A DNA stretch of 10,000 nt from Thiobacillus sp. Its GTDB lineage: Bacteria; Pseudomonadota; Gammaproteobacteria; Burkholderiales; Thiobacillaceae. Position 1 is the first letter of the stretch. The number at the start of each line of letters is the position of its first letter. The stretch is taken from NCBI GenBank assembly GCA_020217265.1, contig JAIWOS010000081.1, forward strand, positions 1 to 10,000. The letters are read 5' to 3'. The notes under the pieces were generated by a model, which saw only the letters and a program-made list of their open reading frames with translations, did no database searches and was not told the origin of the DNA. Shown here in pieces: positions 3,302 through 5,629 of the stretch. The position numbers and the translations under genes are program-made.

Positions 3302-3305
<4 letters not shown>
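2736..3305 (+). CDS. trpG: Anthranilate synthase component II (glutamine amidotransferase)
   Basis: Releases ammonia from glutamine and delivers it to TrpE for anthranilate synthesis, the first committed step of tryptophan formation. It may also serve PabB in folate synthesis. The 189-residue protein is a class I glutamine amidotransferase of normal length. It starts with [14 protein letters not shown], has the oxyanion strand SPGPCTP (50-56), the nucleophile Cys79 in GVCLGHQ, and His168 and Glu170 in VQFHPES. The start is ATG 2736 because AAGGA (2725-2729) sits 6 nt upstream; the second ATG at 2745 is too far from it. The stop overlaps the trpD GTG by 4 nt (GTGA), so the two are translationally coupled. 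The partner trpE is not in the window. Confidence 0.95.
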
Positions 3306-4320
<1,015 letters not shown>

Positions 4321-4321
<1 letters not shown>

Positions 4322-4761
4322 TGGACAGGGAGGCAAAGGAGGTAAGGGAGGAAAACCTTGCCCGATTGGGGGAAGCGATCATCGGGGGTGCAATGCGCGT
4401 GCATAGTGCTCTGGGTCCCGGCTTGCTCGAATCTGCCTATGAGGTTTGCCTTTGCCACGAATTGAGCAAGACCGGATTGCGTGTGGCGCGACAGGTCGCG
4501 CTACCCATACGCTACGATGGCATTGAACTGGAGGCAGGGTACCGACTTGATCTCGTTGTAGAAAATTCTGTCGTGCTGGAACTCAAATCTGTCGAGAAAA
4601 TTTTGCCAGTTCACATTGCCCAGGTTGTCAGTTACCTGAACCTGGGCGGATATTCGGTCGGATATCTTCTTAATTTCAATGTGTCGCACATGCGTGATGG
4701 CATACGACGCTTGAGCAACAAGCGCAATAACCCTCTCGTTCCTCCCTTGCCTCCCTGTTGA
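4321..4761 (+). CDS. GxxExxY family protein, PD-(D/E)XK nuclease-like
   Basis: A 146-residue protein of unknown cellular role. The defining motif GLLESAY is at 34-40 (Gly34, Glu37, Tyr40), after the typical lead-in [15 protein letters not shown] (20-34). RLDLVV (Asp77) and LELKS (Glu87, Lys89) fit the D...ExK core of the PD-(D/E)XK fold, followed by QVVSYL and YLLNFNV, which are also typical. Nuclease activity is not demonstrated for this gene. The first about 11 residues (REAKEVREE) and the tail ([10 protein letters not shown]) are encoded by the inverted ends of the unit and are absent from typical family members as I know them. ATG 4321 overlaps the trpD stop (TGATG) without a Shine-Dalgarno, suggesting coupling; TTG 4318 and internal starts are alternatives. 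The stop (4759-4761) is 5 nt before the trpC ATG. Its G+C is lower than its neighbours. Confidence 0.82.
4323..4757 (+). mobile_element. GxxExxY insertion unit with GGGAGG-block inverted ends
   Basis: A 435-bp unit lies between trpD and trpC. Its two ends are inverted copies: left 4325-4351, right 4732-4758. Each end reads as a 9-6-6 series of conserved blocks (ACAGGGAGG, GGGAGG-like, GGGAGG-like) separated by 3-nt linkers that vary. The sequence TTGAT occurs on both sides (4318-4322 and 4758-4762). If this is a target duplication, removing one copy and the unit restores a junction where the trpD stop is 5 nt before the trpC ATG. The interior is visibly poorer in G+C than the flanking trp genes, which suggests transfer. 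The single gene inside encodes no recognised transposase. The exact boundaries (4 or 5 bp duplication, extra GG at the left) are uncertain, and mobility is an inference from structure. Confidence 0.6.
4325..4351 (+). repeat. Left inverted end of the GxxExxY unit
   Basis: Blocks: ACAGGGAGG (4325-4333), linker CAA, AGGAGG (4337-4342), linker TAA, GGGAGG (4346-4351). It matches the reverse complement of 4741-4758 at 17 of 18 positions; the match is weaker in the third block. Because the period is 9 nt, it encodes the N-terminus REA-KEV-REE of the GxxExxY protein. It contains a perfect Shine-Dalgarno-like AAGGAGGT (4336-4343) that has no in-frame start at useful distance. Confidence 0.75.
4732..4758 (-). 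repeat. Right inverted end of the GxxExxY unit
   Basis: Read on the minus strand: ACAGGGAGG, linker CAA, GGGAGG, linker AAC, GAGAGG. It ends 8 nt before the trpC ATG and occupies the place where a Shine-Dalgarno would be expected. On the mRNA it reads as pyrimidine-rich CCUCCC blocks, resembling the anti-Shine-Dalgarno sequence rather than a ribosome-binding site. It can pair with the left end. Confidence 0.75.
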
Positions 4762-4766
4762 TATTC

Positions 4767-5555
4767 ATGAGCGACATCCTCGACAAAATCCTCGCCACCA
4801 AGAAAAGCGAAGTGGCCGAAGCGCGCACCGACGTGCCGCTGGCGGAAATGCGCGCGCGTGCCGAGGCCGCGGCGAAACCGCGCGACTTCGTTGGCGCGCT
4901 GCGCGCGAAACTCGCGGCGGGCCAGCCGGCGGTGATCGCGGAAATCAAGAAGGCCAGTCCCTCCAAAGGCGTGATCCGGCCCGACTTCCGCCCGGCGGAG
5001 ATTGCGACGAGCTATGAGCGCGGCGGTGCGGCGTGCCTTTCGGTGCTCACCGACGTCGAATATTTCCAGGGCAGCCCGGGGTATCTGATGCAGGCGCGCG
5101 CGGCATGCGCGCTGCCGGTGCTGCGCAAGGATTTCATGATCGACCCTTATCAGGTGTACGAGGCACGGGCGATGGGGGCAGACTGCATCCTGCTCATCGT
5201 CGCTGCACTGGAATTGAAGGCAATGCAGGATCTGGAAGCGCTGGCGCTGGAACTCGGCATGGCGGTGCTGGTGGAGTCGCACGACGCCGCCGAACTCGAC
5301 GCCGCGCTGACGCTGAAAACGCCGTTGCAAGGCATCAACAATCGCAACCTGCGCACCTTTGAAGTGAGTCTCGATACCACGCTGGACCTGCTGCCGAAGA
5401 TCGGCCCGGAGCGCATCGTCGTCACCGAATCCGGCATTCTTGCGCCCGCCGACGTGGCGCGCATGCGCGAAAGCGGCGTGAACGCCTTCCTGGTGGGCGA
5501 GGCCTTCATGCGCGCCGACGATCCCGGGACGGAGCTGGCGCGGCTATTTGCCTGA
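4767..5555 (+). CDS. trpC: Indole-3-glycerol-phosphate synthase
   Basis: Closes the indole ring by converting carboxyphenylamino-deoxyribulose phosphate to indole-3-glycerol phosphate. The 262-residue (beta/alpha)8 barrel is a stand-alone enzyme, not fused to TrpF. Catalytic signatures: [11 protein letters not shown] (58-68, with Glu59 and Lys61), VLRKDF (118-123, Lys121), VLVESH (167-172, Glu170; VLVEVH is commoner), GINNRNL (189-195), TESGI (220-224) and FLVGEAFM (241-248). ATG 4767 was chosen for the standard N-terminus [12 protein letters not shown]. No Shine-Dalgarno precedes it, only the pyrimidine-rich end of the insertion unit. An in-frame TTG at 4758 overlaps the upstream stop as TTGA and is a possible coupled start that would add three residues. 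Translation probably depends on ribosomes leaving the GxxExxY gene. Confidence 0.94.
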
Positions 5556-5565
5556 TTCTGGTTGA

Positions 5566-5629
5566 ACAGGGAGGAACGGGAGGTAAGGGAGGAAGAGCAT
5601 TTCCTCCCCGTCCTCCCTTACCTCCCTGT
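5566..5629. repeat. 64-bp foldback, miniature relative of the GxxExxY unit
   Basis: Two 29-nt arms (5566-5594 and 5601-5629) flank a 6-nt loop GAGCAT. The left arm is ACAGGGAGG-AAC-GGGAGG-TAA-GGGAGG-AA; the right arm is its complement in every block but not in the two 3-nt linkers. The fold has helices of 9, 6 and 8 bp separated by two symmetric 3-nt internal loops. Block order and size equal those of the ends at 4325-4351 and 4732-4758. Read in the same frame, the left arm encodes NREEREVREEE, close to the start of the GxxExxY protein, so this resembles an internally deleted copy. It fills most of the 84-nt gap between the converging trpC and the ATPase gene. No T-run follows on either strand, so it is not a typical terminator, although it could stall polymerase. 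Confidence 0.72.

Follow-up and report, generated by a model that had tools for sequence, protein, structure and literature searches.

What is a small gene of the GxxExxY family doing inside the trp operon of a Thiobacillus genome, between trpD and trpC, and why is it enclosed by two inverted arrays of short repeats? From the 10,000 nucleotides of DNA analysed here (hereafter the window) it had been predicted that the gene forms a mobile unit with inverted 27-nt ends and a duplicated target site, moved in trans or by its own nuclease-like protein. The answer that we favour, with evenly balanced confidence, is that the feature is the gene-bearing copy of a selfish palindromic element whose PD-(D/E)XK protein recognises its arm family; it has the look of a kind of selfish DNA that has gone largely unnoticed. 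The original prediction was borne out in part, in that the packaging, the empty sites in relatives and the further copies of the ends were found, whereas the target-site duplications were not.

Architecture of the locus

The GxxExxY gene (4321..4761, plus strand, 146 aa, PD-(D/E)XK-like) was identified from its open reading frame and family profiles. It is preceded by trpD (3302..4321, plus strand) and followed by trpC (4767..5555, plus strand), host genes recognised as open reading frames in a conserved neighbour order; the names trpD, trpC and trpG come from reading frames and gene order rather than from a family search. The ATG of the GxxExxY gene at 4321 overlaps the trpD stop codon (4319-4321) in the sequence TGATG, its stop lies at 4761, and the trpC ATG is at 4767. 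Reading the sequence confirmed that removal of 4323-4762 restores a TGA, 5 nt and an ATG. The segment also has the low GC content ascribed to it, 0.530 as compared with 0.625-0.705 in the other, non-overlapping 440-base windows.

The gene sits within two inverted arms of 27 nt each, 85% complementary and built from three GGGAGG-type units, which lie ~434 nt from end to end. The left arm (4325..4351, plus strand) has the outer end ACA and matches a pattern dispersed in the genome, and the right arm (4732..4758, minus strand) is predicted to pair with it. Since the 9-nt unit period keeps both arms in frame, the ends of the protein are made of arm sequence; both arms are translated within the reading frame, and the C-terminal end reads PLVPPLPPC. 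Arms, reading frame and family scores (see below) together confirm a GxxExxY gene packaged in GGGAGG ends between trpD and trpC. No Rfam family was found in the window.

The encoded protein

The protein belongs to the GxxExxY family, with scores of 140.6 bits against TIGR04256 (cut-off 35) and 141.7 bits against PF13366 (cut-off 22), both above the curated cut-offs. PF13366 is its sole Pfam match, and the gene-bearing form encodes no recognised transposase. Family members number at least in the thousands (7997 of 8000 scored candidates were significant). A PDB sequence search with the protein gave no match, and its predicted structure (model pLDDT 88.9) has a PD-(D/E)XK-type fold according to Foldseek ranking. 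The PD-(D/E)XK superfamily is rich in structure-specific enzymes. The active-site residues D77, E87 and K89 are present in the window's protein and in at least 125 of 126 loci, and E37, D77, E87, K89 and Q101 were each found in at least 125 of the 125-126 loci. As judged from these alignments and from dN/dS values of 0.02-0.33 (where computable), the protein is under purifying selection with near-invariant catalytic residues, and its description as nuclease-like is upheld. Carriage by phages or plasmids was rejected, with the gene in 0 of 50,697 phage records and 8 of 72,556 plasmid records. In the collection of papers searched by names, accessions and arm sequences, none dealt with GxxExxY function or with the arms; the arm sequences matched unrelated papers on mammals, fish and plants, to judge by title.

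Inverted arms around GxxExxY genes

Most relatives, too, are packaged by inverted ends. An inverted repeat with a score of at least 12 was found around 64 of 80 GxxExxY genes, as compared with 14 of 800 control windows of the same length from the same loci; these 80 are the best of 582 loci by similarity to the window's protein rather than a random sample, and they span Proteobacteria, Acidobacteria, Planctomycetes, Verrucomicrobia, Chloroflexi, Cyanobacteria and others. Within the genus and the order, arms were present at 43 of 46 loci against 14 of 460 controls at a score of at least 12, and at 40 of 46 against 0 of 460 at score 14, the 46 loci consisting of 21 out of 22 from an earlier set (the fragment L037 was left out) and 25 new ones, one per genome, from 80 matches listed.

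Typical GxxExxY arms begin with ACC followed by units such as GCAGAGGAC or CACAGAGG, and of 52 arms in which the periodicity is clear, 51 have units that repeat every 8, 9 or 10 nt. The left arm is purine-rich on the coding strand in 84 of 107 loci, and on the opposite strand in 3. Where the neighbours on both sides are co-directional, the gene shares their direction in 67 loci and opposes it in 9 (p 4e-12), by a crude measure of orientation based on the longest open frame to either side. A tandem array of ~18 CACAGAGG units was also seen at a contig end (G002:C10:2-148). The original prediction had named, as a finding that would speak against it, that other copies of the gene lack GGGAGG ends. 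This is literally true of the loci that we read, as these copies carry other unit motifs, but it does not refute the idea because the architecture is kept and arm type follows the protein family (see below).

Gene-less palindromes

The further copies of the 27-nt ends were found in the same genome. The three-unit GGGAGG pattern, at up to two mismatches, has 22 matches there, as compared with 4 for the reversed pattern, and these include eight facing pairs, seven gene-less and one around the GxxExxY gene, which is itself present once in the genome. Most of the remaining matches are intergenic, with a weaker opposite arm and short unrelated loops (by eye). One gene-less copy of the palindrome, with both arms matched, stands directly behind trpC (5566..5629) and is predicted to fold as a hairpin with 3-nt mismatched spacers. 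At up to one mismatch, 99 relatives (55 of the same genus) yielded five single matches in four genomes and no facing pair, from which it follows that the GGGAGG palindromes have multiplied in this lineage. The possibility that the gene-less palindromes are deletion derivatives of the gene was rejected, by eye only, as their loops look unrelated to it.

Three motifs were followed, M1 (CACAGAG), M2 (CGCGAAGG) and M3 (GGGAGG). Among the matches listed, 42 M2 palindromes have outer spacers that match more often than by chance (0.87 vs 0.71) and inner spacers that match less often (0.23 vs 0.41). Because of this pattern, a built-in internal loop near the palindrome tip may be a recognition feature, by analogy with the bulge described as such for some REPs (PMC8266576). 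In gene-less CGCGAAGG palindromes the inner spacers of the two arms differ beyond chance, as if the element had left and right ends. In many CACAGAG palindromes (L051-L067) an AAAACC box lies ~5 nt from the first unit on its outer side, and several have GGTTTT opposite (by eye).

Empty junctions and re-used slots

The trpC gene was located in 53 of 60 genomes and 48 trpD-trpC junctions were read, with 5 left unread. Within the genus, 28 of 30 junctions (own genome included) are empty, the gap being -1 to 27 nt wide, in agreement with the empty sites predicted for relatives, and the filled junctions of G000 and G029 hold GxxExxY genes with different arms. Among 18 junctions outside the genus one holds the gene (G082), one holds a gene-less palindrome of another motif (G073), 13 have gaps of 4-48 nt and 3 have no recognisable trpD upstream. 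As the junctions are mostly empty and their fillings differ, the element is an insertion and its slot has been re-used.

Copies between trpD and trpC occur in at least 11 of the 30 order genomes examined (8 best-match loci and second copies in G082, G094 and G095, the one in G094 being counted with only the trpD side on the contig). On a protein tree of 101 translated stretches (17 with internal stops set to X) the eleven copies need seven changes, and their origin as a single clade was rejected (AU p 0.001); the gene tree also mixes phyla. By this phylogeny, trpD-trpC has been reached repeatedly and independently by unrelated family members.

Other operons hold the gene as well, behind trpE in four Oxalobacteraceae (with trpG visible downstream in three) and between gspE and gspF in four Thiobacillus. 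We take the names gspE, gspF, gcvT, gcvH and trpE to be correct from the look of the sequences, without a family search. Out of 29 gspE-gspF junctions, 2 contain the gene, 21 contain quite different palindromes (by eye) and 6 contain neither. Since these junctions hold differing palindromes, insertion-tolerant operon gaps are part of the story. The other gspE-gspF palindromes are of GGGGTCAGGATTCAGG type in 9 of 29 and of CTTTTCTTTGGTTACTTTC type in 12 of 29 junctions (L225-L253, by eye). At the gcvT-gcvH junction the same slot has a different palindrome motif, GGGAGG in the own genome (L020) and CGCGAAGG in G009 (L068) and G010 (L070).

Flanking repeats

TTGAT is found on both sides of the element (4318..4322 and 4758..4762), as had been noticed, and duplications of 4-5 bp were to be looked for around further copies. 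The left TTGAT lies 2 bases off the left arm and the right one overlaps the right arm by 1 base. When the flank pairs of 12 GGGAGG palindrome copies were compared, the other 11 copies showed no direct match as long as 3 nt, and 36% of shuffles gave a flank match of at least 4 nt in one or more of 12 copies. Because of the offset from the arms, the other copies without duplications and the shuffles, TTGAT gives no evidence of target duplication and is a chance repeat; target-site duplication was rejected, with 1 of 12 copies at 4 nt or more, as expected by shuffling. Tandem duplications that span a right arm or a whole palindrome together with the start of the next gene were seen as single cases in L031/G029, L042/G095 and L053/G013. 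Flank duplication as the footprint of a break was also rejected, as it is not enriched (5/205 vs 3/383 at a score of at least 20).

Arms and the protein that they enclose

Genes for another small protein, the four-helix-bundle IVS protein of TIGR02436, are in the same order also enclosed by inverted unit arms (23 of 30 genes, L254-L283, against 13 of 300 controls at score 12). Their units (GTGA..., AGGGGCT...) are unlike those of GxxExxY. CRC-type units are present in 40 of 43 GxxExxY arms and in 0 of 23 TIGR02436 arms of the same order (p 7e-15), counting arms with a score of at least 12 only (43/46 and 23/30) and using a unit expression written after the arms had been seen. A looser expression of TIGR02436 type matches 19 of 23 TIGR02436 arms and 9 of 43 GxxExxY arms. 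Both arm types are found in 9 of 12 compared genomes that have both genes, and the five GxxExxY genes of G082 have five different arm pairs. The mean arm distance is 0.18 between the left and right arms of one locus and 0.58 to other loci.

Within GxxExxY, distances between proteins correlate with distances between arms (rho 0.31, p 0.0005; 83 rows, host kinship uncontrolled, after removal of 15 rows that shared a site or were duplicates and of every short or weak arm). Moreover, genomes that carry a gene rank high in the palindrome cognate to its arms. For eight genes the ranks among 56 Thiobacillus genomes are 1, 2, 5 and 10 (M1), 2, 3 and 6 (M2) and 1 (M3), with a permutation p of 5e-6 and 1 of 280 label orders within carriers, although genomes of one genus are not independent, and G029, a ninth carrier in the genus whose own motif was unsearched, was left out. 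Matches that overlap within tandem arrays are included in the M1 counts, and the control with the reversed pattern resembles the motif.

Judged by sequence comparison, the type of arm goes with the encoded protein family rather than with the host. The CRC split, the distance correlation and the cognate ranks are the trace expected of a protein that recognises its own arms, and the GxxExxY protein probably does so. Against this stand the three GxxExxY arms without CRC-type units, namely L210, L217 and the window's own GGGAGG arms.

How the element may spread

The selfish-DNA reading is favoured because similar arms surround relatives in many bacteria and gene-less copies are scattered in the genome. 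Packaging, dispersed copies, the arm-protein match, patchy presence, re-used slots, co-orientation and selection on a complete active site were observed, and a scheme that connects them could run as follows. Two inverted arms, each of about three direct units of 8-10 nt, with the nuclease gene between them, would fold as hairpins on single-stranded DNA or as cruciforms. The nuclease would nick or cut at the folded arms, and repair or replication would copy the element into gaps that separate a stop codon from the start codon after it; gene-less palindromes would be copied in trans in the same way. Transcription would be supplied by the host operon, and the purine-rich left arm may act as a ribosome-binding site. 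Movement in trans or by an own nuclease, as originally proposed, is something that we still infer, and cleavage need not be the shared function because the non-nuclease TIGR02436 has the same layout.

An unlikely but substantial alternative is that the gene is a cargo or homing gene. Another factor would spread the palindromes, and the nuclease would cut gene-less palindromes or the empty junction, into which the gene would be copied by arm or trpD/trpC homology. Palindromes are indeed abundant without the gene, and the many palindrome-rich genomes that lack it also count against our own explanation. Only 3 of the 11 Thiobacillus genomes with at least 20 M2 matches carry an M2-armed gene, and matches to the general pattern number 57 in G073, 28 in G081 and 25 in G098, all without the gene (congeners of G073 and G081 carry it). 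At the order level 3 of 4 carriers are palindrome-rich, as compared with 3 of 36 others (Fisher p 0.008, with a threshold set after the counts had been seen and the fragment genome G088 counted as a non-carrier). The cognate-motif match could also arise if more palindromes simply offer more landing places. The repeated entry at trpD-trpC, by proteins that are not one clade, and the gene-less palindrome of G073 at that very junction fit homing as well. On the other hand, arm type differs between GxxExxY and TIGR02436 genes in one genome, a passive passenger would not explain five genes with five arm pairs in G082, and most Thiobacillus trpD-trpC junctions have no palindrome to home into. Re-entry of the same site across species, a mark of homing endonucleases, was found here, but would be expected equally from plain tolerance of the slot, which may explain the re-use because gspE-gspF holds unrelated palindromes in other genomes.

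It is improbable that we are dealing with an RNA-level element like the rRNA intervening sequences (IVS), the arms of which would pair in the transcript so that RNase III trims the loop, the insert is tolerated through its removal from, or insulation in, the mRNA and spread occurs by chance recombination. The ~434 nt and the layout are similar to those of the 428-nt IVS of Coxiella, which has an ORF and complementary borders, as described in PMC4990558, the IVS protein family itself is found in unit arms, the elements are co-oriented with operons, and in the predicted RNA fold of 4319-4766 the right arm pairs with 23 of 27 left-arm bases. Yet the gene-less palindromes are dispersed between many genes with no ORF to insulate, a near-invariant nuclease site would be unnecessary, and the inner spacers of the listed M2 palindromes pair below chance, so it is not perfect RNA pairing that is conserved.

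That GxxExxY is an ordinary host gene (e.g. for DNA repair or defence) with regulatory or recombination-prone surroundings is highly improbable, since in spite of its purifying selection and conserved position in some lineages (e.g. six Nostocaceae loci) it is patchy, with matches in 44 of 300 order genomes (9 of the 44 with split, partial or weak matches alone), and the same arm types recur at unrelated places and as gene-less copies.

These alternatives retain some weight beside the selfish element with a self-recognising protein because palindromes occur without the gene, no transposition or insertion event was caught in the genomes compared, target duplication is absent, flank duplications are unenriched and TIGR02436 shares the layout. 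A broader proposal, which we advance tentatively and hold to be somewhat doubtful, is a new class of selfish elements, each with a small protein gene placed between inverted arrays of protein-specified 7-10-nt units, GxxExxY and the four-helix-bundle IVS proteins being two independent lineages that each drive their own gene-less palindromes. If true, many intergenic repeats in diverse bacterial phyla that now lack an explanation would have one in such a class. If the protein specifies the arms, this would give the origin of an entire layer of intergenic repeats, make lineage-specific repeat recognition by a small nuclease testable and place the long-standing puzzle of the IVS/S23 protein in a general frame.

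Comparison with known systems

MITEs and classical insertion sequences have, like the present element, inverted ends and gene-bearing and gene-less forms (for the definition of MITEs see PMC3116915). Unlike them, it has no known transposase family and no target duplication, and is therefore not a classical IS or MITE. PD-(D/E)XK nucleases of the Cas4/RecB, restriction and Hjc kinds are also among the closest known systems.

The 23S rRNA IVS with an S23 protein ORF is of similar size (~430 nt), has its ORF inside a stem of complementary ends, is patchy and has been called selfish (PMC4990558), and its protein family TIGR02436 is found in unit arms outside the sequence described in that paper too. 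The present element also has an ORF within stem-forming complementary ends, but it lies between protein genes (trpD and trpC) instead of in rRNA, encodes a nuclease-like protein instead of a four-helix bundle and has other unit sequences; being outside rRNA, it is not an IVS in the strict sense.

REPIN/RAYT systems (TnpA_REP, REPtron) likewise combine short dispersed intergenic palindromes with a single-copy gene flanked by the same palindromes, and palindrome and protein are described as co-varying between lineages (PMC3116915; PMC8266576). A gene flanked by palindromes that are also dispersed as inverted pairs, as in a REPtron, is what we found here. However, the GxxExxY protein is of PD-(D/E)XK type and RAYT is an HUH (Y1) transposase, the GxxExxY arms are arrays of 8-10-nt units, and the GxxExxY tree mixes phyla whereas the RAYT phylogeny is given as largely congruent with that of the species (PMC3116915). 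A RAYT as the mover was rejected here, as no Y1_Tnp match was found in the own genome (84.6% complete) or in the palindrome-bearing G035, G095 and G098, yet 66 of 100 relatives have one, so that elsewhere a RAYT may still act. Having no HUH enzyme, the element is not a REPtron. By analogy, it appears closest to REPIN/RAYT in its working and to the IVS in its looks.
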